From: Tomocerus qinae | Taxonomy: Eukaryota; Arthropoda; Collembola; Entomobryomorpha; Tomoceridae | Length of the DNA: 64,000 nt | Direction of reading: 5' to 3' | NCBI GenBank assembly: GCA_020055645.1 | Contig: CM034549.1 | Location: 33,627,930 to 33,691,929, forward strand | Translations under genes and position numbers: made by a program | The notes under the pieces: generated by a model | The model's input: the letters and a program-made list of their open reading frames with translations, nothing else | Databases searched by the model: none | Told to the model about the DNA's origin: nothing | Shown here: positions 15,680 through 63,977 of the stretch, piece after piece | How the letters are laid out: each line of letters begins with the position of its first letter | Position numbering within the stretch: the first letter of the stretch is position 1

Positions 15680-16069
15680 ATGGAAATTTTACATCAATCA
15701 TTTGCAGAAAGGTGGAGTCATATTAATTCAAATATCAGATCTTCGTACAATTCCGTGCCTCCTCATATCCAATCTGAAATTGATGATGAGTTTTCTACTA
15801 ATATTACCGAAGAGGAAATACGTTGGTCAATCTCGAAAATAAGAAGTGACTCATCTGCTGGACCTGATAACATATATCCTAGATGCTTGAAATTAACGAA
15901 ATGTTCAAAAGTTTTAGCCAAACTGGCTTCATTGATGTTTCGATATAATTTTGTACCTTCCATGATGAAAGAAGCCAAGACAATCTTAACCTATAAGAAG
16001 AAAGGGGATCGTAACATTCCAGATAATTGGCGACCTATTTCTATTTGCTCTGTGATACGGAGAGTAATT
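15680..16069 (+). pseudogene. R2-like non-LTR reverse transcriptase, N-terminal fragment
   Basis: Reads from MEILHQSFAERWSHIN through EEEIRWSISKIRSDSSAGPD to NWRPISICSVIRRVI. The 'SAGPD-x-I' and 'NWRPISI-x-S-x-x-R' motifs are those of reverse transcriptases of R2/NeSL-type non-LTR elements (RT blocks 0-2). The frame is cut at 16069 by the DUF7869 transposon and resumes at 18685. The N-terminal zinc-finger/Myb part of such proteins is absent, so the copy is 5'-truncated, as is common for target-primed retrotransposition. Confidence 0.85.
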
Positions 16070-16309
16070 GAAGGCCCTAATTCGAAAAGTAACGGTTTCA
16101 AATTATGATCGCAGATTGCTGTAATTGTCATAGAAATTATGGTTTTCTTGTAAATATGAGGGAAACTACAAATATTTTGTCATCATTCCTTAAGTTGTCA
16201 TTCTGGGTTCATAATTTTTCATTAGTTGTGCTGCATTTAAAACAGGTAATTACTAATCAAAAAAGTTTAAGATAATCAAAATCAAAATAAAATTATCATA
16301 TCCAATGTT

Positions 16310-16403
16310 ATGGATCCACCTCAACAAGCGGTCAGACCGAAAAAACGCTCACGGAATCCGGAAGTATGGAGACACAATATTATAAAAGTATTGAAAACCA
16401 GAG
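16310..16403 (+). CDS. DUF7869-family transposase-like protein, exon 1
   Basis: Starts at ATG 16310 and gives MDPPQQAVRPKKRSRNPEVW and on to KTRG, ending AGAG|GTAAGG in phase 1. The basic 'R-K-R-x-R-NP-x-x-W-x-x-N' start is the usual N-terminus of arthropod and cnidarian proteins of this family. An overlapping ATG five bases upstream is out of frame. Confidence 0.8.
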
Positions 16404-16527
16404 GTAAGGAAAATAATAATTTAAATGAAATGAAATTGATAGCATTAAAATTACGATAGTCACTATAGACTGATTCGCATAAATGAAATGTGACAATTAC
16501 GCAATTAAATTTTCGGATGTTTCGAAG

Positions 16528-16826
16528 GACTTGAACATCGTACTCACTGGGGAAATGAACTAAAACCGGCCAGAGAAGTAGTCAATGAACCTTGCCGTCA
16601 CGGCTGCCACCTGAAATTGGACATGGCAGAAAAGCAACTGATTTTGACAAAATTTAACAGTTATCCATCGCACGAATCTCAGAATATTTATTTACAAAGT
16701 TGCACAGTACCACTCCAAAATCATAGATACGACTATATTCTTCAACTACCTGAGCGAATAGAAGTGGTTTTCCAAAAAACCTTTCTCAACGTCCACGGAA
16801 TAAAGCGATCACGTTTGCAAAGAAAG
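16528..16826 (+). CDS. DUF7869-family transposase-like protein, exon 2
   Basis: Phase 1 in (GA completes Gly), phase 0 out at AAAG|GTATTA. Reads LEHRTHWGNELKPAREVVNE then CRHGCHLKL, probably part of a zinc ligand set, and ends FQKTFLNVHGIKRSRLQRK. The last segment matches the 'V-C-KKTFL-x-x-(F/H)GI' motif of the family, also present in the decayed relative at 31.8 kb. Confidence 0.8.
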
Positions 16827-16902
16827 GTATTAAGTTACCAAAGTTAATTACAATGTAAATTAAAAGTGGTTTTAATAAATAAAAATGTATTAGGTTTTGC
16901 AG

Positions 16903-18321
16903 AGACAAGTACCCATCTCTGACGGCAGGGGCAAGCATGAACGTCACTATACAGTAGATGCTGGAATGCTTCAAATCGTACGTACTTTTATTGAAAATTT
17001 GGAGTCCAGAAGCAGTCATTATTCGATTAATGACAACCGAAATAAGATATTTCTGGAATCGCACACAACGATGAGATCTCTGTACCACCAATTACTCTTG
17101 GAGCATCCAAGATTAAATCCAAATGAATACGTCGATGGTATCAAAGAATCTAAATTTGTGAATATTTTCAACTACGAGTATAATATAGGGTTCGGTTTTC
17201 CCCGAAGTGATATATGTGATAAATGTGAAATTCTCAAGGCCAAAATAACAGCAGCAGCAGTAGATCGTGAAGAAGATAACGAATTTAGCCTACGTTTGGA
17301 ACAACAAGAACACTGGTCAGAAGCTGGTATATTTTATAGCAAGATGTCAAGAGCAACAATGGCTGAAACGGACGAAACACACTTATATCTCTGTTTTGAC
17401 TATCAGAAAAACTTACCGTTTCCGGTTACAAACGTTGGAAAAGAATTCTTCCTGCGACAGTTGTGGCTTTATAATTTTGGAATTCGCAATTTAAGGACTG
17501 GTGAGACTCACATGTTTACATACTGTGAGCACTATGGTATGAAAGGATCGTCTGAAGTCTTAAGCTTTGTAAAGTTTTATATTGAAAACTTCATTCATGA
17601 AAATATTCGCCACCTGCACCTATTCTGTGACAACTCGTTTGGACAAAACAAGAACAGATTTCTAATGGCTTACCTATATTCTATCTGTCCAGGGAGATTT
17701 GAAACTATTCTTTTCGACTTCCCATTTCCTGGTCACAGTAGAATGTTGATCGACTCTGATTTTGCTCAAATAGAAAAGAAGAAACGAAAGGAAGATAAAA
17801 TACTTTACCCCTCTCAATGGGTTGATTTGATCAGAAGTGCCAAGCCCTCTGCACCATTCACAGTCATTTACGCAAATTATCCTGTAACCAATGATATGTT
17901 AAATGATGGAAGTCTAATTTGTAATATTCACGCTTACAAAACCAGCCTGGCACCGTTAGTTCGGCCTTTAAAAGGTCAAATATCAGGAATAAGGGGACTT
18001 TCCTATTCCAATCATGGCATCTTCTCGAGAAATACTTTATCTGGCGAAACTAATTCTCCTTTACATCTCCTGAAACCAACTATCACCATCGCTCATTTAC
18101 AGGAAGTTATTCAAACCACTCCAATAGCTTATAATGACTTTTTACCTATTGCGCCCGCTAAATTAGCTAATGTTGACGTGCTTCTGGAGACATTCTACAA
18201 ACCTTCCGAAAACGTGTTTTACGACACTATTTTCAATGCGCCATTTGATGAAGATGATACCCGATTGGATATTATAAATGAGGTTGAAGATGAAAACTTT
18301 GACTTTTCGTTCTTAAATTGA
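16903..18321 (+). CDS. DUF7869-family transposase-like protein, main exon
   Basis: Starts after TTTTGCAG in phase 0 and runs 472 codons to a TGA; the whole spliced product is about 603 residues. Order of features: RQVPISDGRGKHERHY, the SHYS segment, a CDKCEILK zinc motif, a beta-strand block (HLYLCFDYQKNLPFPV), HMFTYCEHYGMKGSSEVLSF, and LFCDNSFGQNKNR. The last is the position where most relatives read DNCGGQNKN; it is taken to hold an acidic residue of an RNase-H-like fold. HSRMLIDSDFAQIEKKKR follows. These are family features of DUF7869 proteins. The role as a transposase is inferred from the TIRs and target duplication around it. GQNKN is kept but CGG is changed to SFG, so activity is uncertain. 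Confidence 0.85.
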   Translation, partial: RQVPISDGRGKHERHYTVDAGMLQIVRTFIENLESRSSHYSINDNRNKIFLESHTTMRSLYHQLLLEHPRLNPNEYVDGIKESKFVNIFNYEYNIGFGFPRSDICDKCEILKAKITAAAVDREEDNEFSLRLEQQEHWSEAGIFYSKMSRATMAETDETHLYLCFDYQKNLPFPVTNVGKEFFLRQLWLYNFGIRNLRTGETHMFTYCEHYGMKGSSEVLSFVKFYIENFIHENIRHLHLFCDNSFGQNKNRFLMAYLYSICPGRFETILFDFPFPGHSRMLIDSDFAQIEKKKRKEDKILYPSQWVDLIRSAKPSAPFTVIYANYPVTNDMLNDGSLICNIHAYKTSLAPLVRPLKGQISGIRGLSYSNHGIFSRNTLSGETNSPLHLLKPTITIAHLQEVIQTTPIAYNDFLPIAPAKLANVDVLLETFYKPSENVFYDTIFNAPFDEDDTRLDIINEVEDENFDFSFLN

Positions 18322-18475
18322 GCTGTCTTAATACATATGAAATTTAGCACTTTAATATGGTTGAGTAGATTGTTTCTCTAGCTGTTTCTTATGCCTTAAG
18401 TTTTCATAGAATTCGTATCGGTTCGTGAATATGTTAAAGTGATTCGCTGTACGCATGTTTATATTATAGATCTTC

Positions 18476-18481
18476 AATAAA
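18476..18481 (+). terminator. AATAAA poly(A) signal of the DUF7869 gene
   Basis: AATAAA 155 bp after the stop codon, inside the transposon and before its right TIR, so the transcription unit is self-contained. Confidence 0.6.
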
Positions 18482-18684
18482 GTGTTGGTATTCATTCACT
18501 GTTAACGCAACGAGTCTACATTTTTACAAACAATACACGATTGACGATTACACTACTATATATTTCACTATTCCATTCAACGTAATATATGCGATATCCC
18601 TATAGTTATTATTTATTTACCAGCAAACATAGGACAAATAGGGTCGTTTCGAAACCGTTACTTTTCGAATTAGGGCCTTCAATT

Positions 18685-19234: not shown

Positions 19235-20404
19235 ATGTCTATAAGCAGTAGTAAATCTACTGCAATAATTATTGAAAACGGAAAACTATCAACCAATGAT
19301 CTTAAGATTTCCAATGAAGTAAGTATTCATGCTTTAAAAGAGGATGAAGCTATTAAATATCTTGGTGTGACATATAAACAACAGCAAGTATTTGAAGAAT
19401 CTGTGGTTCTTGGAAAACTGAGGTCGTCGTTATTGAAACTAATATCTTCACAGATGTTATTTCCTGACCAGAAATTGAATATCATTAATCAGTATCTTTG
19501 GCCAGTTATGGTTTACCCATTACAAACTTGTCCTATTTCAAAGTTACGATTATCATTCCTCCGTGATATTGATTTAATGATTAGAAGTACAATCAAGAAT
19601 ATTATTGGAGTCCCAGATGACATCCCATCTTCTATGCTGTATTCTCCTAAGAAGTGGAAAGGGCTTCAACTGCCTAATGCTGAATGGGAAGCTTTCATTC
19701 AAAAATACAACATCTGCGAAACATTAATGCGACAAAATGATCCATATGTTGCGGTAAGTAGAAGATTTGATCGTGATATGGAACTTTGTCTAGAAAAACT
19801 CAAAATTAGCAGTGAAGATATCCGATCAGTCAGAAATTTGCCAAGTAATAAGAAAATCAGTCAAAATAAAACTTCTGACATTTTACGTTTAATACTTCGT
19901 GAGCGTGAATTTTTGAAATGGTCAGAACTGAAAACTAAAGGAAAAGGTGTTTCGTTATTTAAGCAGACACCATATGCTAATGATTGGGTAACAACTCGAA
20001 AAGGATTAACTGCTTCGGAATGGACATCTGCCATTAAAATGATAGGTTGTGTAGCTGCTGTAAATTCAGTTCCCGGAAGAAATTTTAACACTAACCGTTG
20101 CCGATACCCGTCGTGCAATGAGATTGAAACCATTGGCCATGTGTTAGGATTTTGTCCAAAATCTGAATTAATGCGAACAAATCGTCATCATGTCATTAGA
20201 ACCATGATAGCGGATTCCTTACGTGAAAAAAATTTTCGAGTATACGAGGAGGTTCATTGCAATTCTAATAATGGATCTAATAGAAGAGTGGACATTCTAG
20301 CTATTCAAGGAAACAAAGTTTACATAATTGATCCAACTATTAGAATTGAAGGTCATGAAAATCAGCCTGAGGAAGTACATATGAGCACCTGGGCGGAAAA
20401 ATGA
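19235..20404 (+). pseudogene. R2-like element: RT thumb, zinc knuckle and restriction-like endonuclease
   Basis: 389 open codons. The N-terminus (KYLGVTYKQQQVFEESVV) is the RT 'K-x-LG' block. The middle is the thumb/linker. CRYPSCNEIETIGHVLGFC is a C-x4-C-x7-H-x4-C knuckle as in R2-type proteins, followed by the R-x-x-x-H helix. NRRVDILAIQ then VYIIDPTIR is the PD-(D/E)xK-like restriction endonuclease core that site-specific R2/NeSL-clade elements use to nick their target. This module looks intact, although the protein as a whole is broken. The position is not in rDNA, so the element is either another RLE clade or a displaced copy. Confidence 0.85.
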
Positions 20405-20620
20405 CTTATCTCAGTTGCTAAAAATAATTAATAATGTAACTAAGGACCTTTTTTATAAAATCTAAACAATTTTTAACCCTTACACTCGGATGTTACGGTT
20501 AACTGTGCGCTTTGGGATTTGCGTACAATACACACTGACTTACACAAAGAATCAGCGCCGGTGTTGACCTTCGATCCGATATACTTTGGTACATAATTGA
20601 AAAGTTTTTATCACTTTCGA
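20396..20620 (+). repeat. 3' end of the R2-like element (arm of an inverted pair)
   Basis: The stretch from GGCGGAAAAATGACTTATCT (still coding) through the 3' UTR to about 20620 matches the reverse complement of 22285-22572 at roughly 80% by eye. It marks the 3' part of the retroelement. Confidence 0.75.
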
Positions 20621-20876
20621 ATAATTTCGAAAGTCTGGAAAGATTGGAAAAGGGGTATGTTGGGTAGTAAGCAAAAGGGGCAAAAGTACTGAAATTTTTG
20701 ACCTTTTGAATATTTTTTGAATAATTTTGAAATGAGTACCAGTAATTTCGAATATTTTAGAATTCATTTGAAAATTACAAATGTTTTAGAATTTATTTGA
20801 AAATTGAGAATATTTAAGAATTCCTTTGAACATTACGAATGTTTTAGAATTCCTTCGAAAATTATGAATGTTTAAG

Positions 20877-21086
20877 GGCAGTGTGCATAATGACGGGTTA
20901 GAGTAACGTAACCCTATACCCCGAGTCCAAAATGTTACCCCGGTGGACGACCATGGTAAGTTGCCAATAGTTACAGTGCTATTTTAATACAGAAAAGTTG
21001 ATCCTAGGTTGTATTAAGGCAAGTTTTAGACTATTTTGTGACTCCGGGTTAGGAGTACCCTCTGACTCGCCATTATGCATACTGCC
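20877..21086. mobile_element. foldback MITE inside the minisatellite
   Basis: Ends GGCAGTGTGCATAATG and CATTATGCATACTGCC are inverted; the pairing continues imperfectly for about 50 bp through the CCGAGTC motif. One arm of the same family recurs at 23607-23700. Confidence 0.8.
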
Positions 21087-21223
21087 ATTAGAATTCATTT
21101 GAAAATTGCGAATATTTTAGAATTCATTTAAAAAATTGCGAATATTTTAGAATTCATTTGAAAATTTCGAATGGTTTAGAATGCTTTTGAAAATTGCGAA
21201 TATTTTAGAATTCCTTTGAAAAT

Positions 21224-21528
21224 GGCTGAATTTATAGGCAGCGGTACTTTGTTGCCACTGTTGCCGTTGGGGAGTATCGGGGGTTAGCGGCAAAAGCATA
21301 ACAGCGGAGACAGTGGCAACCGTGGCGACACGCTAAAACCACTGGCGGCAACAGCGGCGACACGCTACAATCACTAGCGGCAACAGATTAAATCAGATTA
21401 ATGTGTCTCTGTTGCTGCTGGTCAGTGTTGCCGATAGTGGTTTTAGCCGCTGTTATGCTGTTACCGCTAACCCCCGATACCCCCCAACGGCAACAGAGGC
21501 AACAAAGTACCACTGCAAAAATTCAGCC
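21224..21528. mobile_element. foldback MITE inside the minisatellite, GC-rich
   Basis: GGCTGAATTT...GGTACTTTGTTGCC pairs with its complement ending AAATTCAGCC. Arms of about 90 bp include CCGTTGGGGAGTATCGGGGG. The interior repeats GGCAACAGCGGCGACACGC units. Distinctly GC-rich compared with the AT-rich array around it. Confidence 0.85.
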
Positions 21529-21700
21529 TTGAAAATTACGAATGTTTTAAAATTCTTCTGAAAATTGAGAGAATTTTAGAATTCCTTTGAAAATTACGAA
21601 TGTTTTAAAATTCATTTGAAAATTGCGAATATTTTCGAATTCATATAAAAATTGTGAATATTTTAGAACTCATTTTAAATTTTCGAAAAGTTTTGAATTA

Positions 21701-22284
21701 TAGCGTTGACGGGAAATCATGCTTTCCCGCTAAAGCTATAATTGAAAACGTATTTTTTAAATATTTCGAAGTCACAAGTTCCAAACATTGACCTTCCCCT
21801 ACTTTTTGGAAATTTTAAATACTTACTTATTTTAAATACGGGCTACACTGTAATCGTAATTAATACACACAAAGTGAATGCTCAAGACCCCACGATCAAT
21901 CTCATCGTCGGTTTTATAGAGTACTTCCGAATTCTTGGAGTAGCTTAGAGTATTTTTAAATTGCTTCGACATTTGCCCTTTCAAAGCCCTTTTAATGGTT
22001 TTAATTTTTTAAATCTTTCTTACCTCGAACATTTTCTATTATGTTTCCGGAGTTTTCAATTTTGTTTGGGGTAAGTAACAATTTTTATGTGTTTGAGTTA
22101 ATTTCAAATGTGGACATTTGTGAAAATATTTTCATCGTTTTCGATTGTTATTTAACCTTTTTGACAAAATTATAGGTGAGAATTTTGGGTATTCGAAAAC
22201 ACAGTTTTAAAATACTCGACAGTATGAATTTGCACAAGTATTTGAAACTGTCTGGAATTTTTTTAATCAGAATGCAATGGACGT
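21701..22284. other. unassigned sequence
   Basis: AT-rich, apart from a short inverted motif at 21700-21745 (TATAGC...GCTATA around ATCATGCTTTC). No gene. Confidence 0.4.
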
Positions 22285-22572
22285 TAGCTATATTCCTGGG
22301 AATTTGCCTGCCGAAGACATTCCAAGACTTATAGAACTTTTCGCAAGTGTTAGGAACTGTTCAATTATGTACATCAATGGATCGAATTTCAACGACGGCG
22401 TTGATATTTTGTGTAAATCAAAGTGTGCATTGTGCACAAATCCCAGTGCTAAGCCAGCTAAGCCTAACATCCGAGCGTGAGGGTTAAAAATTGTTTGAAT
22501 TTTTAATAAAAGCCCTTAGTTACATTGTAAATTATTTTTGGCAACCGAGATAAGTCATTTTTCCGCTCAGCA
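22285..22572 (-). repeat. inverted second copy of the R2-like 3' end
   Basis: Reverse complement of 20396-20620 with substitutions. Contains the same GACTTATCTC, CAATTTTTAACCCT and GATGTACATAATTGAA landmarks in the same order. It is a 3'-only fragment, so a second severely truncated insertion in the opposite orientation, or an inversion product. Confidence 0.75.
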
Positions 22573-23423
22573 ACTCATATAGAGAAAACTGACATCTATG
22601 AACCCTGTAGTAGTTATTTTATGGATAATTACAACATAGAAAGTGTTGAAGTCATAGGATTGTTTATTGGTTCCCGGGGTACTATTTCAAATTTTTTTGA
22701 AATGTTCCGAAAACAATTTGGCTTGTCCAAAGATCTGGTCCGTAATATAGTAATATCTGTATTACGTAGTTCCGTAAATATACTACATCATCACTTGTTT
22801 TCTATAAACCATTAATTTGTTAATGTGTATAATTATGTAATAGTGTATATTTGTTTTCCGTTTATATCCAACTTATTACTGTGTCAGTTATGGCAAACCT
22901 TAGTTGTAAGGTCAGTGGCAATAAAGGCATTTCTTCTTCAAATGGCATTTGCAAGGCAAATATAGGGTTTAGTACTAGACAAGTACTACACAAGAAAATC
23001 TGGTTAGAACTTTGGACAAAATAGCAAAAATGGCAAAGAGAGTTTCATGAAAAAGTGTAAAATGTAAGCTAGCTGATGCTTGACCAGATGTGGAAGTCAC
23101 AAAATATCGGACAGATTGAAGCGATATAAGCATTGGAATGGACCGACACGACATGAGCTGGATCATTGAGCTTTTCTCTATGCCAACACTGTCGTAGTTG
23201 TAGCCATTTGCCTTACGAATTTCCATTGCGTCATTTCGTGTACAGTATTCGTTCCCATGGTTACTGTCCCAATGTCCCAAAGAGTAGCAGTGCAAAACTC
23301 GAAATAACAATAAATCTGTAAATATTTGCAAATGTACAGCAGTACATCCAAATCCATGGGAAATTGAATGAAGACTCTACAGATTGCTGTTGCTATTGGC
23401 TCCCTGTATGCTAAACTACATCT
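22573..23423. other. unassigned, with small repeat matches
   Basis: GTTTAGTACTAGACAAGTAC near 22968 matches the flank of the MITE at 13739. Nothing else recognised. Confidence 0.4.
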
Positions 23424-25412
23424 CTTTCAACTTCTTCCTATTCCTATCCCCAAGTTGCATAGCGATGCACATAGAGGTTCTTTGGCATACAGTCAGTTAA
23501 ATAATAATTGAAGTTGCTAGATGAAGAAGTCTAGATTTCAATTTTATTTTCGTTGCTAACGGAAATATAAAATTTTGAAATACAAAATACCCGAAATTCC
23601 GGCGTAAGTATGCATAATGGCGGATCATTGTAACAATCCTATACACCCAGAGTCAAAAATGTGACCCTGGTGGATGATCGGGGTAAGTTGCTAATATTGG
23701 CTTCATTCTATTCGAAACTTGACCGTTTTTTGACGTCCGCAATCCGCAATTGATATTTTATTGCTTGGTATAGACCATATAGAAATACCTTGAATGAATA
23801 TTTTTAAAATACCCACTAGCCAAAGTAAAATGTAGCCGACAATTGAAGGATATCACACAAAGTTTTATATTCTTCAGTAATCATAACCAGACATGAAACT
23901 TGAAATATTTCTCGGAAATAAATAGGCGAAATTTTAGAAACATTTCGCGAACCCTCTTCCTTGAAAAATGAAATATTTGAAATAAATAGGGTACATTTAC
24001 GTAATTTCAATAAATTTCATTTGAAATAAATGAATTTTATGAATGAATGAACACATGCGTATTGTATTTATTTCAAATATTTCATTTTTCAAGAAAAATT
24101 CTTTGAAATAAGAAATAATGTCATGTCTGTCATAACACCATTAACATTCGGGCAATCAAGGCTGCCATCTGTTTAATATTTGACTTCGACAAAATATTTG
24201 TAAAATTTAAACCTCTTAAACTATTCTGAGACCCGTTCTTTTAAAGTTATTCAAAATGTCCAAAATACGTTGTCCTGACTCTTATGAAAATAAATAAATA
24301 ATGGCCCCATGCAAATATTTTTTTTGAATATAGATTACAAAAAACTAATATTTCAGTGTTTGTAACTTTGAAATCGCGATATTTTCAATACAAAATGTGA
24401 AATTTTCGACGGGACTTCTATTAAAGAAGTTTATGGGAATTTTTTGGGTATTTACACTTCTTCGTAGGTCCAGTAAGTTCAGATCCTTAGAGACTTTGCT
24501 AAAAATGTCATACTTTTCACTTGTATCTTTTTTTCAAGATGAACATGGTAATCAAGGGGCTTAGTGATGAGTGTCCATAGAGATTTTCTAATTTGCGAAT
24601 CTAAACACTTTTGGATTGCTTTGGTTCAGTTTGCATAGTTGTGGACCTTAAAAGGTTAAAATATCAGGACTCCAGTTGAAAGATGAAAATATTTTTAGTA
24701 CTACATCAACCCGAAACTTTAATTTACCGAAAAATGATGTATGTAAATAAACTAAACATAATCATTTTCAGACTTAGATAAAGATTTTTTGATTGTTGTA
24801 ACTACTTTTTAAAATATCTTTTATACATTTTTTGGTTTCGAATAGAAAAGATTCCTTATGGTTGAAATGACTACGTTTAGTTGTCCGGTATAGGAGCGGG
24901 ACATATAAAGGGTCCAGATAATAAAGTATTTTTGGTCCATTCGAATTATTTAAATCTGCTGACCTGTTTTGCTATCGTAATCTCTTTATAGTGCAATTTC
25001 GAAGATTTTTCGTACTCTTTGTTAGTTGTCGGCTACCTTTCAACTCGGAATTCCACTACTTTGTATTTCAAAATTATATATTTCGGTTGTCAACGAAAAT
25101 AAAATTGAAATCTAGACTTCTTCATCTAACAACTTCAATTGTATTGTGTATATAAATAGCTCGATTCACCATTCCCAGAAATGTGTACATTGAAAGGGAA
25201 ACTAGTAGGTAAATAGATCATTCAGATGATTCATAATATGACTTGGTTGAGTTTTGCAACAATTTCATAAATTTTGGAAATGTGTCCCCATTTAGGTAAC
25301 CTATAGAATTTTTGTCATAGAAATAACCAATCAGATTGCAGGATTTCAAAAATTATCAACCAATCAGAATGCGTATCGCTATGCAACTTGGGGATAGGAA
25401 GGAAAAAGTTGA
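23424..25412. repeat. outer inverted repeat around the 23.5-kb element
   Basis: CTTTCAACTTCTTCCTATTC then CTATCCCCAAGTTGCATAGCG (23424-23465) pairs with the complement at 25375-25412. A foldback element probably existed first and received the AATT element into its interior. Confidence 0.65.
23510..25136. mobile_element. AATT-target TIR element 2
   Basis: Terminal inverted repeats of about 78 bp (ends GAAGTTGCTAGATGAAGAAG / CTTCTTCATCTAACAACTTC). AATT directly flanks both ends (23506-23509, 25137-25140). 1627 bp, with no recognisable coding. Contains half of the 20.9-kb MITE family near 23607 and a segment (about 24510-24655) that recurs upstream of the ABCA gene. Confidence 0.85.
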
Positions 25413-31059: not shown

Positions 31060-31282
31060 AATTGACTCATTCCCTAGTAAAAGGGGCTTATATGATTTTG
31101 CAAATGAAATACCGTAGTAACCCAGTAGTAACCATAATTTTAAAGTCACTAAAGCCCGCCCAACTCAGTTTTTTTAAATTTACTCTCAAGTTTCATTCAT
31201 TTCTTTCAAATTGAGCTCGAAGTTTTACTCTAGGGTGAACTGAATTTGCGGTGCTTGTGTTTTCTGAGTTGCATTTTCCAAA

Positions 31283-32470
31283 ATGAGTAAAAAGGTGGCA
31301 AAGGTTTCTCGTAAGCTGCTGGAAAACTTTAATTCTGGAAAGAGGAGAAAATTGAATATTCTAAGCTGAAAGATCAGGTTGCACAGTCCAGCAGAAATGA
31401 AGGAGAGCCATATCAAGGAAGAAATGTGATGCTAAACCCTTCAAGAATACCTCCCCAACAAGACGTATTTTTTGAATAATCACCATGAAATTGACATTCT
31501 TTGTATTATTTAACATATTAAAAGTAACTAAAGGAAACGTTTCTTGGCCCAGATCTGCTCTCAAGGGTGTCAAAAGGAAGGTTGTAATTCTATCAATGTA
31601 GAGAGAAAAGTAGAACTATTCCAACAATTTTGGAGTACATGAAATTATGATATGCTGACAAGTATCCTATCTCGGTACATTCGATAATGTCCAAAGCAGA
31701 TGAAAATAATGTTTACGTCAATTTTACTGTTATTTCCTCTCGGATACTTTTGGATTTCAGATGCCGGTATGCAAAAAAACGTTTTTGGGAGTTTTCGGAA
31801 TAGGCAAAAAGCGAGTAGAAGTTTTACAGAAAAAGATTTCGTTTGGAATCCTAAATTTCACAGATAAAAGGGGCAAGGAACAAAAAAGCAATGCATTTTT
31901 TACTTAAAAGGTAAAAAGGTACCTATTTTACCTTTTTTGCTTTTTTACCAATGCATAAAGACGTAGTCAGTCTAAAACTACTACGCAAACCGATCAAATA
32001 TAAAACATTTGTAGTGTGAAATAGTGTTTTAAATCAATAGAACACTAATCTAGAAATATCGGACAACAAAATAACACATTTTATTTATTTTTATTTCAAC
32101 TTTTAAGAACGTAAAAAAGCAAAAAGGTAGCCTTTTTTTCAATTTTGCACTTACCTTTTTTACAAAAAAGCAAAAAAAGGAAAAAGCAAAAAAAGTTTCT
32201 TTTTGTTCCTTGAAAAGAGGCAGCCATGAAAACTACAGACGGTTTCCGGAAAATGGTTGGAATCTAATACATGCACATATTCAAAGTTATATGAGACTTC
32301 CTGTAGCCACTATTCCAGAAGCAGTGGTGACTGGTGACCCTACTCGACAATACCTAGCGAGGGACTTCTCCATTACACGAATGTTCCGCGACTTTGTCGA
32401 ATTGTATGATAAAGCTGCAGACTGGGAGTGGGCCTACCGAACATGCTTCAAGGAATTAGGGCTCAAGTAG
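31283..32470 (+). pseudogene. DUF7869-family gene remnant
   Basis: Readable blocks: a basic start (31283: MSKKVAKVSRKLLENFNSGK), then NVERKVELFQQFWS (about 31585), then PVCKKTFLGVFGIGKKRVEV up to TDKRGK (31760-31873). After the MITE, KRGSHENYRRFPENGWNLIH then AHIQSYMRLP and SITRMFRDF lead to a TAG at 32470. The order and motifs parallel the intact protein at 16.3-18.3 kb (FQKTFLNVHGI..., SDGRGKHERHY...). Stops and frameshifts occur throughout and the DNSFGQNKN part is absent. Confidence 0.75.
31874..32212. mobile_element. hAT MITE inside the DUF7869 remnant
   Basis: Ends CAAGGAACAAAAA / TTTTTGTTCCTTG are inverted. 8-bp flanks AAAAGGGG (31866-31873) and AAAAGAGG (32213-32220) match with one difference, as expected for a hAT duplication. 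Extremely rich in 'AAAAAGCAAAAAA' runs. Confidence 0.75.
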
Positions 32471-32715
32471 CTTATTAAGGCTCATTTTTGGGAAACTTAT
32501 AATCAACAGGCTTAAAATATCCTATTTAAATAAAACCTTCGTCTTCAGTTCCCATGTTAATATTGCATTGTATGGTATTATCTAAGGTTCATTCGTCATT
32601 ATTGTTTTGTTTAACAGATTGATTCGTTTCCATAAGCTTACCCCGTCTGGTCACTATAAAATAAATTATTTGTTTACAAATATCTAAGCCCCTTTTACTA
32701 GGGAATGAGTCAATT

Positions 32716-33010: not shown

Positions 33011-33828
33011 ACGGATTGGCCGATGTTGTATAGGAAACTGTGGTATGAAATATCGGGGCACTTGAGCTTGGGATTATAATCATATTTGAATTTTTAATTT
33101 TGCTTTATGTGAAACAGAGCCCTGTCGTAGGACGGGCTAACCAGCTAGTAACGAATATTTTATAGATTCCCCAGATGAGGGAATTTTAGCAACACTTTAC
33201 AATTTACTACAAATTACAATGCACTACGTGAATATTATACATTTTTAAATATTATTTAAAAATGCTAGTTTATGAAAATTTAAATTTTAAAATTGACCCA
33301 TAAATCTACAAAATGAATAAGTTTGCCGCAATGTGCTATGCTAAGGAAACAGCCTAGAGATCATATCCAAAATGACTTTCGTACAGGGCAGAAGGGTGTG
33401 ACATAGCTTTCACACGTTAAAATCAATTTTAATACACACCGGACGGGCGACAAATCTAACCCTATGTTAAGATTGTTACTATAGAAGGGATACGTTTCCT
33501 ATCTTTTCTGTACAAACGATGTTAGTTTGGGGGACAATAATAAGTTCATTTTTATTAAATGACCTATTTTATGAAAAAAAGGAAGTGACAATGTTGCTAA
33601 AAACTGGAACCTCAGCCTTGCTCATCCCAGTCATCTCCTAGGTAATTATCTTGGTTGCAACCGCTCTAATATAAAGGAGTATAACCTTTTGCGCAACCTT
33701 TGGTGCAGTCCAACGTCCAACCGGCCAGACTTAAAGGCCCCATCTAGCCCCACCCTAGTCTGGGGTCGGAGTCGGAATTTAACACCTCACTCCAGCACCT
33801 CACTCCATTATACCCTCAACAACCTTTT
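33011..33828. other. unassigned, with one partial arm of the large foldback
   Basis: 33354-33475 is an inverted partial copy of the foldback arm (ATATCCAAAATGACTTTCGT ... GGCGACAAATCTAACCCTATG). It most resembles the 62.3-kb copy, because both read CGGACGGGCGACAAATC or its complement. Confidence 0.6.
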
Positions 33829-35139
33829 ATTGTTACCGTACGCAAACATGTCCGTACAGAAAGGATAGGAGATTTATACTTGCTATCCTTCTAATGCTAA
33901 CTTAGTTTCCATAGGGTTAGATTTGTCGCCAAGTCAGTCTGTGTTAAAATGGGTTTTCACCTGTGAAAGCTATGTCACAACGTCCTGCCCCGTACGAAAG
34001 TCATTTTGGATATGATCGCTAGGCTGTTTCCAGTTTCGGGGCAGGAATGTGAAAAACATATAAAATTGGGTAATGGTTATTTTCAGTCTGCACTCTGTAC
34101 ATGTTCAAAAAAATTGCATTTTTATTAACCTTAGTTGTAATTATCAATTATTGAAACGTAACTCCTTACAAATTAATGATAACAACATGAAGGTATGGAT
34201 AATGGATAGTTGTTGTTAGAAGAAATCAATGAAACATTTACATTTTACGTATTTAAATGAAAATAAAGGATACTCTGAAATAGTTGTGGAGGTCATTGTT
34301 GCGCCTCATTGGATGTTGTAGCCGGTAAGTCCAGGAAATAAACAACAAAGACAGGGGACGAAAGCGGTGAGTGGTGAGAAGGTCAAGTTAAATTGCAATA
34401 ACAAAGGCACGAATTTAGGACCACCTTTTCCCTGTCATCAAAAGTCAACATTTGCCGGACTCTCCTATATTTCATCATAATAAGTTCGAATCAAAAATAT
34501 AAAATTCAAATCATTCATCTGATATGCGATATATAGTGGTAACTCTCATTTAGTTTATTCCACATATGTGAATGGGCAGGTTCAAGAAACAATAAAAATA
34601 TCATTATATATTCCGTCCTATATAATGCTGAAGATAGTACAGTGTCATATTCTCATTTAAATAATAATAATAAGGGCAATGATAATAAGTAGACCAAAAA
34701 CTTAAAATAAACATTTTTGACTTAAATTAATTCTGGATTTTACCCCTAGAATGCTTTAATAAATAAAATTTTAGGCATTAGATTGAATTTTTGATTCGAA
34801 CTTATTATGATGAAATATAGGAGAGTCCGGCAAATGTTGACTTTTGATGACAGGGAAAAGGTGGTCCTAAATTCGTGCCTTTGTTATTGCAATTTAACTT
34901 GACCTTCTCACCACTCACCGCTTTCGTCCCCTGTCTTTGTTGTTTATTTCCTGGACTTACCGGCTACAACATCCAATGAGGCGCAACAATGACCTCCACA
35001 ACTATTTCAGAGTATCCTTTATTCTCATTTAAATACGTAAAATGTAAATGTTTCATTGATTTCTTCTAACAACAACTATCCATTATCCATACCTTCATGT
35101 TGTTATCATTAATTTGTAAGGAGTTACGTTTCAATAATT

Positions 35140-36760
35140 GAATGGATTATACGAACAACCAGCAAACTCATAGATCTTAGATAAATTTATGAAAAATCTC
35201 TCTTGACAACAAAACTTGTTTTGAAAGAGCAGAGACCCGAAAGCCAATACGCATTCTATCGCAAACCCCAATTTATGCAGTTGACCTTAGAAGTCGATTT
35301 CGGAGACGGCAAGGATGTCATACATTCATAATATGTATAAATGGCCTAAAAATCACATCGATTTTATTTTGGTATTTGGGGAAATTTGGCATTTGCCCCC
35401 TATGCCCCCCAACTTTGTTTTTAGTCCTATTGTTCGTTCAGAAAAATTGGAAAGTTCAAAATCTGAAAGGTTTTTTAGATATTGAAATGTTACCATGGTT
35501 ATTTAGATTTTTGTCTTCAGTGAAATAAAATTTACCATTAAACTAAGATTTCAAAATGATCAACATGTAAAAAGCCACACAGGACTAGCTAATTTTCCTG
35601 AACGAACAGTAGTATGGTGCTCTAAATTTCGAATCTGAATAAGAAACGAAACATGTTGGTTGGTTGGTTTCTTGTTTCAATATTATTATATTTGAGCTGA
35701 ATTTAGGTAGCGGGATCTCGTTTCCTCCCATCCCGTTTCCTCCAAATGATCGATTCCAAATAACCAATTATCTGTTTCCTCCAAACTTAATAAAACACCC
35801 TAACATCCGTCACTATTTTTTATCTATTTTCTGGCCTAACAAATTTAAAAAAGAAACATGCTACTTGTTAGGCTTAAATTTTTTAAGTAATGTCAAAAAA
35901 GAAGCAAAAAATTGACGGGAACCAAATAACAGAATGGGGCCTTACCACGGCCTTTTAGTTTTGCTATGGAGACGGTTTACGATAGGAAATAGAATCCCAA
36001 GTTGCAACATTGCCTATCATTCTAACATAATTTTACGTCTCGTCATACTATTTTTGCTTCTTTTCTGACCTAATCTAATTAAACTGTTTGTGTATAAAAC
36101 ATTGATATATAATGGTGTAAGGAGAGTCCACTAGCGAATTTTGCTAAACATAGATTTCTGAAGATTTATAAGGAATTATTTCTGAGAAAAATCCCTTACT
36201 TCTACCTTTTCTATAATGCTTCAACAATGATTGTCCCATTCCAGCATCCTATTAAACGTTCTTCATTTATTCCGTTTCCAACAAAGAGGTTGTAAAATGT
36301 AGAGCCAAAACCGTAATGCCTTTCAATGGTACAAAAATCAATCTCTATTGTCTTCGATTATGCATTAGTAGGTATCGTAAAAATTTCGCGGCGGAAGTAG
36401 TCAGATGCATTAGTGGGTATCGGTAGTAGCTATTCATCAAATGTTACAAAGAAAATACTCTCCACTTTTGCTCTATTCCCTTAATATTATTAGAACCTCT
36501 TTGGTTTCCAACAACATAGCGTTTATGCTTCTTGGAGGAAACAGGGGAGGAAACGAGATACCGCTGCCTAAATTCTGCCTGCAAAAATAAAATTTAATAT
36601 CCAGAGGGGACTGATAATTTTTTGTTCAGGTTTGTTCGGCTGGATAAATTACCAAGTGATTTCGGGTGTTTTATTTGTTTGTTGTCAAGGATTAAATCAT
36701 TAAAAAAATTTCCTAATTTATCTACGATTTGAGTTTGCTGGTCATTCGTATAACCCATTC
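35140..36760. mobile_element. AATT-target TIR element 4
   Basis: Ends GAATGGATTATACGAAC / TTCGTATAACCCATTC are inverted for about 31 bp with 4 mismatches. AATT directly flanks both ends (35136-35139, 36761-36764). The other arm of the host foldback shows the uninterrupted site (TCAATAATTGATAATTAC), which confirms a 4-bp duplication. 1621 bp. No coding was recognised. Confidence 0.9.
35699..36575. mobile_element. inverted-repeat element inside AATT element 4
   Basis: GAATTTAGGTAGCGGGATCT and CGTTTCCTCCC pair with the complement ending CTGCCTAAATTC (36575); GTTTCCTCC occurs several times in each arm. No target duplication was seen. Confidence 0.65.
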
Positions 36761-37279
36761 AATTGATAATTACAACTAAGGTTAATAAAAATGCAATTTT
36801 TTTGAACATGTACAGAGTGCAGACTGAAAATAACCATTACCCAATTTTATATGTTTTTCACATTCCTGCCCCGAAACTGGAAACAGCCTAGCGATCATAT
36901 CCAAAATGACTTTCGTACGGGGCAGGACGTTGTGACATAGCTTTCACAGGTGAAAACCCATTTTAACACAGACTGACTTGGCGACAAATCTAACCCTATG
37001 GAAACTAAGTTAGCATTAGAAGGATAGCAAGTATAAATCTCCTATCCTTTCTGTACGGACATGTTTGCGTACGGTAACAATAGCATAAATTGGCACACCA
37101 AAGTATGTATGACAACACACCGAATTGATACCATTGGTATATACCAACCCGCGGCAAATCCCCATAGTAAAAGGCAAAAAATTAAAAAATATTTTTGTGA
37201 CGTCATCTGCAGTACTTTTCAAAGTCGACTGTCAGACATACAGAGGAAAATTTCTTATTTTCCAAAGATTTATATAAGT

Positions 37280-44062: not shown

Positions 44063-44073
44063 TGAGTTTTAAA

Positions 44074-47824: not shown

Positions 47825-48589
47825 TTGAAACTTTCAAAATCATCTTATAAATAATTTGAACATTTCAAGTTGTTTTTTCGAAAATATATCCAATTCTTAT
47901 ACATTTCACAAATAATATTTGAAGTTTTCGAAAACATTTCAAAGATTTTGAAAAATTTCAAATCAAATATTTTAGCAAAAATTCCAAATTTAGCAAAGAT
48001 TGAAAAACTGCCTAGAAAGTATTCCAAATGTTCCATTTCAAATGATTTGCTAAATTTACTAAGAAAATCGTCAGTTCAAATTCTTTTTTATTTTAATTTA
48101 TTTTGACTACATTTTAACCTTTTTGGTCGTTAACCACCAATCCAGAAATATATGCCTAATGTTTTATGGACAAAATGGTACGTTCAATATATTTATACAC
48201 ACCTTACTTGATGTCACGCTTGGCAGCGGTACCGTGTTTAGAAGTCTATTTAGGAGGGGGCAATGACGTCATACACTTATATGTATTAGGCTATAATCAG
48301 GATTTTTGAAAATTTTGCCTTATTTCGTCTAAAATGAGTCAAAAATAGCCTTAAAATCACACGAAATTTTTTGGTAAATGAAGAAAACATTGGGGGGACA
48401 TTTGTCCCCAATGACCCCCCTCAATACAGCCTTGCTTGGCAGTCACAAAGCCATGAAATTTTATTTCTACCAGAAATTGCATAATACATAATTGTATTGT
48501 GCCTAAGAAGTGACTTTCGGGTTCCATATAACTTCAAAATTAAAATATTGCTAATTTCATTGTTGTTTATTAGAATTTTGATTTATCAG
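47825..48589. other. unassigned, decayed TTTCGAAAA repeats
   Basis: 47825-48110 holds loosely repeated 'AAATTTCAAAxxATTT' motifs; the rest is unassigned. Confidence 0.4.
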
Positions 48590-50430: not shown

Positions 50431-50872
50431 TCCCCTGGGAATGCTTTATGAAAATCATATAAAATTTTGAAATGAAATGCTGTACTGCGTGATTGGTCAA
50501 TTTCAAAAATGCATCGACCAATCAGAAGCCAGAGAAATTATCTCCATGGGATGATTTGGACTAGCTAAGGTGATTTTCAAAGACTCCGACTCTTCATTCT
50601 CTTATTATGAAATAATAAGAATAGAATACAGGAAGTCTTAATTAGCCCCACCCTACGAATCTAACCTAATCCATCATAATCTAACCGAAACTAAGAATGG
50701 GGCGCCCCCACCCTTTTAGTCTTGCCGGCAGTGCAACCCAGCAGAACAGATAGCTGACTTCAGATTGACGATTAATAGTTTTCAGGTTACACGTGTTTTC
50801 GAAGAAAATTTATGTTAACAAGAGGAGGAACGGAAAGGACTTTTGAGTAATATCATGGGCATTTTTATTCAG
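50431..50872. other. end of ABCA intron 1
   Basis: Repeat A sequence to about 50480, then unassigned sequence up to the acceptor TTTTTATTCAG. Confidence 0.5.
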
Positions 50873-53112: not shown

Positions 53113-53229
53113 GTAGGTAAATTAAATTATAATTATTTTACCAATGTCCGACTAGGTGGTCCGCTAATAATTGTTATTAAATTCTGTGTCATCATTAAAT
53201 AAATATTATTGGTCTTGTCCTTAATACAG

Positions 53230-53457
53230 CTGCATGGACTGCTGCCTATCGAAGTAACAGAAAACTATGAACACCTGTTGAAAATGTTCAATCTTTGGAG
53301 TCTTCGAAGAACCGGGATTGCCTCGCTCTCTAAATGCCAACAGCGTAGATTGTCAATCGCAATGGCTCTAGTCAGCAATCCTATTGCTCTTATTCTTGAT
53401 GAGCCAACAAAGGACATGGACGTGTACTCTGCCAAGGAGTTTTGGAATATCTTGAGG
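53230..53457 (+). CDS. ABCA-type transporter, exon 3 (NBD1 signature and Walker B)
   Basis: Between TTAATACAG and TTGAGG|GTAAAC, both phase 0; upstream intron 117 bp. The signature reads LSKCQQRRLSIAMAL where ABCA proteins have LSGGMQRKLS, so both glycines are gone. Walker B is IALILDEPTKDMD and looks intact. Confidence 0.88.
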
Positions 53458-53563
53458 GTAAACAGAATTTATTTCTTAAATGTTTAGATGCGTGGACGGG
53501 TGCAAGATGGTCAGATGGTGGCATACCTGGCATTGGCCACAAATCTGTGTCCCGCTGATAAAG

Positions 53564-55652
53564 GGTGTGATTTTGTTGAAGGAATTGAAGCAAGACAGGA
53601 CGGTGATTGTCACGTCATCAACAATTGAAGAGGCCGACAAGTACTGCGATAAAATAGGGTACTTGTCCCACAGGAAGCTTTTGTGCTGGGGCTCCTCTTC
53701 GTTTCTAAAGAGATATTACACCCGCCAAACGGGAATCGACCAGTTTTTGACGGTGACGAGAGGGGACTTTCTGGACAAGCAAGAACTGATGACAGCTTTG
53801 GGGGATGTGAGGGGACTTCGTGAACTGACAGTGGTCGCGATGGGGGCTAAGGCAAATGAGCTGGTGTTTGCAATCCCTGAAAGTGTGACAGACCACTCCG
53901 CGTTCCTAGAAAATCTAGAGGAGCAGCAAGAGATGATTGGATTTTCCAGGTTGAAGCTGCTGCCTGTGGGCCTGTTGAAAGTTTTTAATTTCATCCTGCA
54001 GGACCAAGGAATCGTAGACAAAGATTTGACGAAAGACGAATTCTACTTAGGGGACAACCACGTGCAACTGGACCTGCACAAAGTGTTCCACCCGTACATG
54101 TCGGAAGACCCTCAGCACACGCGGTCCTTTTCCATGAGAGTCGGTGCTTTGGTCAACAAGCGAATTTGGTACACGAGACAGAAATACAGTTTTTTCCTGG
54201 TAGATCACGTGGTGCCTCTGATCTTGTTGGTACTCCTCTGTCTGTGCAGTGAGATGCTCCTCCCCGCCGCGCCGTCTAGTCCATTGAGACCTATTAGTGT
54301 CAATATGCACTCGCAACCATCGGTTGTCATCTTTTGCAACGACCCGGACCATGGAGAAGTGATGAAGAAAGCCTTCCGAGCCGTTCTGCCAAATTCGGAT
54401 TTGAACTTTTTGGATTTCGAGGACAAGTTGGAGGGCAAGCTCATTGAACTTGCAGAGCGGAAACTGGATATTGACTTGTTTGTGGTGTTTGACTGCTCGA
54501 AGATTGTGACTTCCTTCTACTCGTCCAACTCGCCAATCTCAGCCGCCATCTCGTTGAACGTCGTGATGAACATGTTGTTATGGATCATTTCTCCAGACAG
54601 GAGTCGCCCTTATGCTATTCGAGCGTCGATACACCCCGTTCCGCTGTTTGTCAATACCGCCACGGGATCCATTGGAGACTTCTCCGTATTCATGTATGGC
54701 TCTATATTCTCCGTCATTTTTGCAATGATCACTGCTTCCAAAATTGCTTTCCCAATCATGGAACGACGGACAGAGATGAAAAAGATGCAGCTCTTCACAG
54801 GAGTCAGTCCAGGACTTCTCTGCAATGTCAACCTGATCTTTGACATCTTGCTGAATATCCTCTTGAGTGGGATAATCATCGGACTCGTCTTCCTTTGCGA
54901 TTTGTACTCCCAAGTCTTTGTCGGGGAAGATGAAAAGTTGGCCTTGTTCTTCATCATTGTCGCACATTTGTGCTGCGCAGTCGTTCCTTACGCCTATTGC
55001 TACAGCACAGTCCTCTCCTGCCAAAACTCAGGCTTCGGAAAAATGCTCTTCCTCCATTTTGTCACAGGAATATTGCCACTCGCTTTTACTTTCCTCATCC
55101 TCCAAACCAAAAGTGAGTCGGAGCTGGATTTCAAACACCTGATTTATGTCTTCCACATTTTCCCTCCCTATACCATCACCTCGGCTCTCGTTCACTACTT
55201 CCGTTTCATCGGCGACAGTCGCTTCTGTCGGACCATCCCGAAAGAGTCCGCTGATTTGTGTACAGAGTACGAGTCCACCCTACATGACTTCAACGAGATG
55301 AGTCAGAAGAACATCAAGTTTAGTTCTGATGTCTATCTTCCATCTTGTTGCCTTGCTTATTGTGAACCTAAAAATACATGCTACCAACCGGACAAGTTCC
55401 TAGAATGGAACCTGAGTCGATACAGTCGGAACATCTGGATTCATCTAGCTGCAATGCTTTGTCAGGGAACATTCTTTTGGATATTAACCATTTTGATGGA
55501 GTACGGTGTGCTAGCCAGCATCACTACCAGTCTGAGGCATCGCATTTGCGGGGATTCTGAACACAAGACTGCTGAGAATGATTTCAGAGACAATCCGGAG
55601 ACAGACGAAGTAAGGATTGAGCGCGAAGCTATTGATTTCATGATTGATGTTG
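53564..55652 (+). CDS. ABCA-type transporter, exon 4 (end of NBD1 and TMD2)
   Basis: The left edge is uncertain. AAAG|GGTGTG at 53564 gives the right phase and a sensible join (NILR-GVILLKELKQDRTVIVT). The stronger acceptor at 53487 (TTATTTCTTAAATGTTTAG) would be out of frame, so an alternative splice or a sequence error is possible. The H-loop reads VIVTSSTIEEAD instead of ST-H-H-x-DEAD: the switch His is lost. Then GSSSFLK, the regulatory linker, TM7 (SFFLVDHVVPLILLVLLCLC), the second extracellular domain, and TM8-12 (FSVFMYGSIFSVIFAMITAS, LIFDILLNILLSGIIIGLVF, ALFFIIVAHLCCAVVPYAYC, FLHFVTGILPLAFTFLILQT, AMLCQGTFFWILTILMEYGV). Ends GTTG|GTAATG in phase 1. Confidence 0.88.
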
Positions 55653-55771
55653 GTAATGCCATTTTGTTGATAACAATAATAATATAATAATTATAAGGTG
55701 TTTCCACTTTCCATTCCACTACAAGTTTGGGTGAATATTTCCAATAATAAACGCGAAATTAATGATTGCAG

Positions 55772-57393: not shown

Positions 57394-57401
57394 TTCAGAT
57401 G

Positions 57402-60493: not shown

Positions 60494-60573
60494 GTTTCAA
60501 GGAAGATAGATATAAGCAAGGAGCTTTAACTGGTTTAGGTATCCCTTGGTTTCTGTTTGGCTGTTTTTTCATA

Positions 60574-60709: not shown

Positions 60710-62240
60710 GTTGAAACTGTTGACACTCCTTGGATATAAGTAATAGGTTAATCTGGAAGAATAATAATGTAGATGGGACGAGGACAGTATAGCGGAGCTG
60801 CAGCAGCGACATTTCCAAATACAATTAAAACCTGTCAGTTGACAGGAGAATTAATTGGCGCCTCCTACTACATAATATCTATCTCATTGATTCACATTAC
60901 CAATACCATTAACTGCCGCTCAGATAGTTGGACCAAAAAATCTCCTACTATAACCCTAGATTTTAGATGGCTTAGCCATGGGTTGGTTTGTTAATATCAT
61001 CGTGTGCTAATTTGCCGCTCTGATAACGCAGCTAACCTAACGTAACCTAGCCTAACCTAACCTAACCTTAAACGTTACCTAATAAATGTGGCAAATCCCA
61101 ACAAGTTCGTATGTTTCATTACAAAGCAGTTCATGCGTTCTGTATGCAAATTTCCAGCCTTCGGTTCGCTTAAGTTTCCTATTATTTCATTTGCGGAAAA
61201 ATTTAAAACTTGGCCATTTACATTTTTGAAATTATGATACAAGACAATACACTTGCCATGTACCTCCAGAGTAGGGCTTAGACAGGCAGTATCAATGTAT
61301 AAGGAAAATTCGACCTCTGTCAATTGAAACTGCATGTTGGAACCGATCGCCGTAAGACTATTAACTGTTAACATATAGTCAGCTGTCGGTAGTGTTCACG
61401 TACAATATTGCCCCCGGAATACCCACTAGCTTTATTTATAACAGGGCCTAGGTACTGTGATCGGCTAGTTGTATTATACGTATTTATTATAATACTAGGC
61501 CCCCAGTATACTAATGGAGAATTTCAAAATGATTAGGCATATTAACAATGTTAAATTTTCCAAATAAGCTAATTTTCATTCATATTAGACAACCTTGTTT
61601 TATTAAATAAATATGCATGGTATATAAGCGCATGTGCAATGCAACAAAAAGCATCATTTCCCATGCGTAGATAGTTATACATGCGACGCAAGGATAATAG
61701 AAGTATATAGGGATAAAGGTTCGGACAAAAGAGTATACTTTTACATGTATTTCAAAAATGACGGCAGCTGACGTCACTGTCAACATGTATCTAGTGGGAC
61801 GGTGGGACGGAAATCACGGTCCATTGTCATGGATATTTTGACTTTGTTTTGAGGACACTGAAAATGCCTATCAAAATACATGGTCAACCCCCCGACCCCC
61901 TAAGTGTGACGGCAGCTTACGTCATCAAAATTGACCCAAAATCCCACTTTTCATTTTAGTTGACATTGTCCCCAGGTTGACATGCGACGTAGGAATAAAC
62001 ATTTTTATTTAGATTAAATATTAAAAACTCATGATAAATGCATATCTTTAATAATAATTGTAGACATCGCCAAATTTGGACAACAGACGTGTTCAAAAAT
62101 GTCACCAGGAACACTAAAAAAGTTCTCCTTGGCCATGGTAAGTTATCTACTACTATCTCATTAAACAAATTGCTTAAAATTCTGGTGAAAAAACCGGGTA
62201 AAGGTTTTGGCAAAACCAGATCACTTATTCTGTATAGATA
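60710..62240. other. unassigned, with a short CCTAA tract
   Basis: CCTAACCTAACCTAACC at 61049-61065 is a (TTAGG)n-type tract. GACACTCCTTGGAT at 60722 also occurs just before the ABCA start (25926). No gene supported. Confidence 0.4.
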
Positions 62241-62721
62241 GGTATGGATGCTATCCTTTATGTACTAAATTAGTTTCCATAGGGTTAGATTTGTCGCCCG
62301 TCCGGTGTGTGTTAAAATTGGTTTTAACCTGTGAAAACTATGTCACGCCTTACTGCCCTGTACGAAAGTCATTTTGGATATGATCGCTAGGCTGTTTCCA
62401 GTTTCGGGGCAGGAATGTGAAAAACATTTAAAATTGGGTAATGGTTACTTTCAGTCTGCACTCTGTACATGTTCAAAAAAATTGCTTTTTTATTAACCTT
62501 AATTGTAATTATCAATTATTGAAACGTAACTCCTTACAAATTAATGATAAAAACATGAAGCTATGGATGATGGATAATTGTTGTTAGAAGAAATCAATGA
62601 AACATTTACATTTTAAGTATTTAAATGAGAATACAGAATATAGCACTGCACTTTGAAATAATTGTGGAGGTCATTGTTGCGTCTCTTTGGATGTTGTTGC
62701 CAGTAAGTCCAGGAAATAGAG

Positions 62722-62826
62722 GTTTCCCACAATTGGTGACCGGTCATTAAATTAACATGAATAGGTATTGAAATGACTACAGTACCTGCCTGTGTTATCC
62801 TGGAATTGTGGGAAACGTCTATAAAT
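62722..62826. mobile_element. small MITE in the foldback arm
   Basis: ATAGAGGTTTCCCACAATT pairs with AATTGTGGGAAACGTCTAT. The sequence is absent from the same place in the other arm (63820-63835), which shows the empty site. Confidence 0.8.
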
Positions 62827-63071
62827 ACCAAAGACAGGGAACGAAAGCGGTGAGAAGGCCGAGTTAAATCGCAATAAGATACCACATATTTAGGGTTGAT
62901 CCACATATTACGTAATCAAAAAATGTAGCCGTTTTTAGAACCATCTTTTCCCTCTGTCATCAACTGTCAACATTTGCCGGACTCCCCTATGATATGTCAT
63001 CATAATAAGTTCGAATCAAAAATTCAATTCGAATGCCTAAAATTTTATTTATTAAGGAGGCTCACCACGGA

Positions 63072-63480
63072 AGCCTTCATAGCAACCGGGCCTATCTAAA
63101 TGCATGTTAAAAAAATGTTTTACTTCTGGCTTAATTACCCCCGAAGGATAAGACCGATTTTTTTGGGACTTACATTTTTGGAATCCTGGACTATCGAGGA
63201 ATGGATCAGGGTGGATGGATTTTTGATAACGTTGCTTTAAATGCTTTAAAAAATCAAATTCCAAAAAAAGTGAATAAGTTTCAGTTTTTATACAATGTTG
63301 ATTTTTTTTGCACCTCAACGATATCAAAAATCTATCCGCCCTCGCGTGTTTCTCGATAGTCCCGAATCCCAAAAATGGAAGTCCCATAAAAATCGGCCTT
63401 ATCCTTCGGGAGGAATAAAGCTTGATGTGAAGCATTTTTTAACACGTATTTAGATAGGCCCTTGCGGTTGCTATGCAGGC
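63072..63480. mobile_element. foldback in the spacer of the large foldback
   Basis: CATAGCAACCGGGCCTATCT and GAAGGATAAGACCGATTTTT pair with the complements at 63390-63475. Absent from the spacer of copy 1, so probably a separate insertion. Confidence 0.75.
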
Positions 63481-63977
63481 GTGGTTAGCTTTCTTAAAGC
63501 AAAATTTTATTCATTATTTACCTGCTTCATGTTTATAGTAAGTTGACAAGAAACACCATTTACGGTCATATTCAAAATCCAAAATATCTTACAGATATGC
63601 AGCCAATCTATATCAAGTAAATTAAATCTTATTAAAACCTGAAACATCGTCTAGCCCATTTCCATTACCTAAGGTGTGACTATTGACTATTTGTAATGCA
63701 CTTTTTCATTAATGTATTATTATCTGTAAATATTGTCATTGATTACGTAATATGTGGATCAACCCTAAATATGTGGTATCTTATTGCGATTTAACTCGGC
63801 CTTCTCACCGCTTTCGTTCCCTGTCTTTGGTATTTATTTCCTGGACTTACTGGCTACAACATCCAATGAGACGCAACAATGACCTCCACAATTATTTCAA
63901 AGTGCAGTGCTATATTCTGTATTCTCATTTAAATACTTAAAATGTAAATGTTTCATTGATTTCTTCTAACAACAATT

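Follow-up and report, generated by a model that had tools for sequence, protein, structure and literature searches.

What mobilises a set of dissimilar DNA insertions that all lie in the same four bases, AATT? The question is raised by a stretch of 64,000 nucleotides from the collembolan Tomocerus qinae (contig CM034549.1, positions 33,627,930 to 33,691,929; hereafter the window, numbered from its first base), which holds five such insertions (elements 1 to 5; Table 1). Element 1 carries an open gene with the uncharacterised Pfam domain DUF7869. We consider it highly probable that the elements are cut-and-paste DNA transposons served by a DUF7869 transposase with an RNase H fold and a DDD core, that one clade of these enzymes (clade I) has narrowed an ANNT target to AATT, and that the group most likely falls in the Sola2 branch of the Sola superfamily.

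Five insertions and their target duplications

Elements 1 to 4 lie exactly where an earlier, sequence-only reading of the window had placed them. Each has AATT on both sides and inverted termini, the terminal inverted repeats (TIRs) measuring 33, ~92, ~45-48 and ~52-55 bp in order. The same reading saw a fifth element begin after AATT near the end of the window, and this too is an insertion, of 1,699 bp. The interrupted foldback arm picks up again right after it (98.7% identity over 304 bp, from AATTATCC) and, since the resumed arm begins with AATT, element 5 also has the duplication. Elements 1 to 4 start with GA and end with TC; the right end of element 5 reads CAGAACCC inward and is not TC-ended. 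At the DNA level the five are separate families, as first described.

Empty sites can be read for four of the five elements (1, 3, 4 and 5). In the case of element 1, a retrotransposon reverse transcriptase frame runs on through the joined flanks. Adjacent minisatellite units provide the empty site of element 3, and the other foldback arm that of elements 4 (100% identical) and 5. No empty site for element 2 was found within the window. An artefact of a palindromic boundary, which the sequence-only reading had also argued against, is countered by these sites and by the requirement for mostly non-complementary outer flanks. The foldbacks hit by elements 4 and 5 have arm sequence in common, each having been struck by a different AATT element.

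The window was scanned for inverted ends flanked by a 4-bp duplication of whatever sequence (rows at 41.8-50 kb, in minisatellites, left out), which returned ten strong rows. Four are the complete elements. Three others have AATT and are delimited by an insertion or fall within an inverted repeat, and the last three have a different 4-mer. Thirty dinucleotide shuffles of the window yielded a single such pair, whatever the 4-mer, and none with AATT. A G follows the right AATT of each of elements 1 to 4. A 5-bp duplication, AATTG, is ruled out, as copies of elements 2 and 5 carry A, C, G or T at this position; given this variation, only AATT is duplicated and the G is part of the element.

Table 1. 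Coordinates of the insertions, their genes and their hosts in the window (TSD, target site duplication; ORF, open reading frame)
Feature	Position	Strand	Remarks
Element 1, apparently autonomous DUF7869 transposon	16070..18680	+	2,611 bp; TIRs and AATT TSD
Element 1, left AATT target duplication	16066..16069		right copy 18681-18684
Element 1, left TIR	16070..16102	+	33 bp, 1 mismatch; right TIR 18648-18680
Transposase exon 1 (gene model)	16310..16403	+	GT..AG introns, no stops
Transposase exon 2, N-terminal part (gene model)	16528..16826	+	ORF 16509-16844, profile match E 4.7e-14
Transposase exon 3, DUF7869 / RNase H-like core (predicted)	16903..18321	+	PF25273 E 9.1e-7; family profile 558 bits
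Element 2, non-autonomous	23510..25136	+	1,627 bp; TIR arms ~80-92 bp
Element 3, internally deleted, non-autonomous	31064..32711	+	1,648 bp
DUF7869-protein remnant in element 3, N-terminal region	31710..31904	+	E 7.7e-8
DUF7869-protein remnant in element 3	32075..32467	+	E 7.8e-6; no Pfam match at E <= 1
Foldback host of element 4	33828..37082		right arm carries element 4, left arm is the empty site; arms 322 bp 100%, 355 bp 99.7%
Element 4, non-autonomous	35140..36760	+	1,621 bp; TIR ~52-55 bp
Foldback target of element 5 (part in window)	62576..63977		arms 143 bp 98.6%
Element 5, start	63978..64000	+	1,699 bp in total, reaching 1,676 bp past the window end

The DUF7869 protein as probable transposase

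The gene model of element 1 comprises three exons and two GT-AG introns, and its spliced open product is 603 amino acids (aa) long. Five full-length copies, including that of the window, are present in the 334-Mb genome at 100% (rounded) identity (G000:C4:33643999-33646609, C4:1199512, C5:15194730, C1:115304318 and C1:78466343), all five with an AATT duplication. Thus, element 1 moved very recently. Of the two DUF7869-type genes that the sequence-only reading had seen, the one in element 1 is open, whereas element 3 retains N-terminal remnants only.

The fold predicted for DUF7869 is RNase H/integrase-like, as in DDE enzymes. Three aspartates (D169, D246 and D287, numbered from the start of ORF 16894-18318) are invariant in 37 sequences, their counterparts are also kept in nine diverse sequences, and their positions are compatible with the RNase H-like model. 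The third motif of the core is of the type GHSxxxxD. By inference from this model, the protein would be a DDD transposase. A Foldseek search gave no significant match; that a family is missing from it, or from the comparison that showed the DDE-type fold, excludes nothing. No relatives of DUF7869 were confirmed in viral contigs or in bacterial and archaeal genomes.

DUF7869 is very likely the transposase of these elements, given the open gene between TIRs, the recent multiplication of element 1, the RNase H-like fold, the three invariant aspartates and the occurrence of TIRs with a target duplication at 20 of 33 DUF7869 loci (see below); the sequence-only reading had assigned it the same role. 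We regard as exceedingly improbable that it is a passenger gene in elements moved by another, unrelated transposase. No recognised transposase sequence was found in elements 2, 4 and 5, as a passenger gene would allow, but DUF7869 is the sole ORF of at least 150 aa wholly inside element 1, the gene model is open in an element that recently multiplied, and the predicted fold matches that of DDE enzymes.

We propose that the N-terminal part of the DUF7869 protein binds the TIRs and that the enzyme would excise the element, make a 4-nucleotide staggered cut in an ANNT target and join the ends to it, with gap repair then doubling the four target bases. The enzymes of clade I (those of element 1, its relative at 66% identity and loci L013, L023 and L041, with element 2 added by its termini) have in all likelihood narrowed this target to AATT; those of the other clade are relaxed.

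Target choice across the genome

The assembly contains at least 131 DUF7869 matches, and 33 of these loci were examined, 19 in excerpts of 9.9 kb and 14 in excerpts of 3.4 kb. TIRs with an accepted perfect 4-bp duplication are present at 13/19 and 7/14, respectively. Loci without an accepted duplication are evidence neither way, and some excerpts were perhaps too short. The figure of 13 is used in place of an automatic count of 15/19, in which L010 and L011, both artefacts of repeat arrays, and an outer element at L016 were counted and L024 was overlooked. As a control, other duplication lengths were scored at the same 19 loci, with 16 loci at 2 bp (mostly due to the ease of matching two bases), 6 at 3 bp, 1 at 5 bp, 4 at 6 bp, 1 each at 7 and 8 bp and none at 9 bp. 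DUF7869 elements with tabulated ends are 2.2-2.6 kb long (L033 excepted, at 1.65 kb), and the first 20 bases of their two ends agree at 17-20 positions.

We dropped L016, whose own ends are flanked by AATT and ATTG, and the weak pairs at L034, L037, L038 and L040. Nor did we take L059/L060, L083/L084, L087/L088, L091/L092 and L121/L122 as duplications. At L013, L055/L056 and L061/L062 another 4-mer scored level with or above AATT, and AATT was chosen since other copies or relatives establish the family ends. The outer element at L016 (3.3 kb, L016:2272-5547) encloses a DUF7869 element and has inverted ends identical over 20 bases, with AATT on both sides.

Altogether we examined 79 insertions, made up of DUF7869-coding copies, the families of elements 2, 4 and 5, and element 3. 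Perfect 4-bp duplications flank 61, and 60 of these are ANNT, mostly AWWT (ANNT makes up 10.7% of 4-mers in the fetched DNA); none is TTAA. Among the 45 DUF7869-coding insertions, 31 have a perfect duplication, which is AATT in 17.

The use of AATT follows the enzyme tree, built from 34 rows of DUF7869 cores. Clade I in this tree consists of element 1, L013, L023, L037, L039 and L041, and the 66% relative of element 1 was placed there by DNA similarity only. All 14 perfect duplications of the clade (element 1, the 66% relative, L013, L023 and L041) are AATT; no duplication was accepted at L037, at L039 or for one of the relative's copies. The relative is present in at least 11 copies, with AATT in six of the seven examined, and two of its copies stand tail to tail, seemingly abutting, at approximately G000:C4:20150426-20155677 (inferred coordinates). 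By contrast, the 17 insertions of clade II (24 rows) use AATT 3 times, AAAT 4, ATTT 3, ATAT 4, ATCT 2 and ACAT once. The AATT share differs between the clades at a Fisher p of 3.5e-6, a value that overstates independence because insertions of one family have the same enzyme. Counted by family, five in clade I are all AATT-only, versus one of eight in clade II (L046, a single copy). The relaxed members are L012, L014-L020, L024/L033 with element 3, L025-L027, L035, L036/L042, L044 and L046. A third, deep group (L010, L011, L021 and L022) showed no acceptable TIRs in the excerpts examined; ORFs of ~650 aa with a Cys/His-rich C-terminus are present in L010 and L021, and the group is surrounded by many inverted repeats.

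Elements 2 and 3 can be placed by their relatives. Element 2 has many copies in the genome, AATT being used by 10 of the 11 examined, including that of the window. Its bases 16-86 align in register with the DUF7869 element L041 (79%), and this terminal similarity suggests that it belongs to the AATT clade. Element 3 matches the DUF7869 element L024 at 91-93% identity in three blocks that include both ends, which points to an internally deleted relative of L024, of the relaxed clade. Eleven copies of the element 4 family, with that of the window, have AATT (6), AAAT (2), AAGT (1), AATA (1) or no duplication (1); eleven of the element 5 family, counted likewise, have AATT (8), AACT (1) or none (2). 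Neither of these two families is assigned to a clade.

In the copies checked, AATT is thus the exclusive target in only one DUF7869 clade, and other branches accept similar 4-bp sites. The sequence-only reading had proposed a whole superfamily with strict AATT targeting, and had suggested tabulating the 4-mers around DUF7869 loci extended to their TIRs. That survey leaves its proposal very improbable. The five window insertions and the 24 AATT sites among 24 perfect duplications in clade I and the element 2 family (14/14 and 10/10) speak for it, but 14 of the 17 clade II duplications are other than AATT, and the families of three window elements also use other sites (ATTT at L024 for element 3; AAAT, AAGT and AATA for element 4; AACT once for element 5). 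Strict AATT use is therefore refuted at the superfamily level and holds only for clade I. That all five window copies sit in AATT is unsurprising, since the shares of AATT, taken over the perfect duplications of all other copies (4/4, 9/9, 1/2, 5/9 and 7/8), multiply to ~0.24.

Relation to Sola2 and other transposons

Sola elements are described, in the available part of a review (PMC10741241), as having a DDD transposase, 4-bp duplications, lengths mostly of 2-9 kb and variable ends. Sola1, 2 and 3 are handled as groups within one superfamily in the accessible text of PMC4455052. For amoebal Sola2, the portion of PMC3627910 at hand gives 4-bp AT-rich AWWT duplications, with ATAT, AAAT and ATTT as examples, and an 888-aa protein in Dictyostelium. 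No target sequences of Sola groups are given in the available portions of PMC5199201, PMC10294476, PMC7998251 and PMC4455052. The elements studied here resemble the Sola superfamily in their 4-bp duplication (61/79 insertions), in the predicted DDD core, whose catalytic role comes from the model, and in TIRs and size. They resemble Sola2 in target class, and differ from its published description in the AATT-only clade and in the shorter, 603-aa protein. The novelty over Sola that had been suggested is not borne out, as the length and sequence class of the duplication match those published for Sola2.

It is unlikely that the DUF7869 elements form a superfamily that stands apart from Sola and follows its own rule, ANNT, in target choice. 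DUF7869 is absent from the literature searched and no named database match mentions Sola (most matches are nameless), so that Sola2 membership is unproven at the sequence level; further points for separation are that a sequence search of solved structures gave one match, at chance level, that element 1, with its 2.6 kb, lies close to the lower limit of the Sola size range, and that the protein is shorter than that of Dictyostelium. However, the descriptions of Sola and Sola2 in the available texts accommodate the duplication length and its AWWT class, the variable termini, the TIR size, the DDD core and the total length. We find rather improbable, too, the fuller proposal that such a separate superfamily, with one clade fully AATT-specific, is the AATT counterpart of piggyBac with its TTAA. 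The DUF7869 elements probably represent one branch of an already known transposon group, not an entirely new group, and the likeliest assignment, judged by the published description, is to Sola2-type transposons with an AATT-only branch.

Like these elements, piggyBac, an RNase H-fold cut-and-paste transposon, uses a 4-bp palindromic AT target, but the sequence described for it, TTAA, is found at none of the 61 perfect duplications here, nearly all of them ANNT. Sola3 shares the 4-bp duplication and differs in its target, also TTAA. Mos1/mariner and retroviral integrases share the catalytic-core fold, but have other target sites, and DUF7869 has a DDD core with a third motif of the GHSxxxxD type. 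Target preferences reportedly differ among Sola1, 2 and 3, as Bao et al. are said to have found in 2009, and Sola2 proteins from Hydra and aphids in Repbase presumably resemble the DUF7869 family.

Elsewhere in the window, an old foldback at 20379-22580 (arms 79%, bounded by ATAT, with GAG...CTC ends) is possibly a decayed ANNT-type element. A 40-bp minisatellite family occupies many separate blocks, in both orientations, at 42017-49743, and an ABC transporter gene lies at 50851-55687, with adjacent ORFs for ABC and ABC2 membrane domains. At 61032-61082 there is a short interstitial (CCTAA)n-like array, whose unit is known from arthropod telomeres.

The DUF7869 domain thereby gains a likely function, that of a DDD transposase. 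Its related enzyme clades, one using AATT only and the other relaxed, form a natural pair for mapping target choice to residues. A candidate for tests of activity is element 1, whose gene is open and whose five full-length copies are near-identical.
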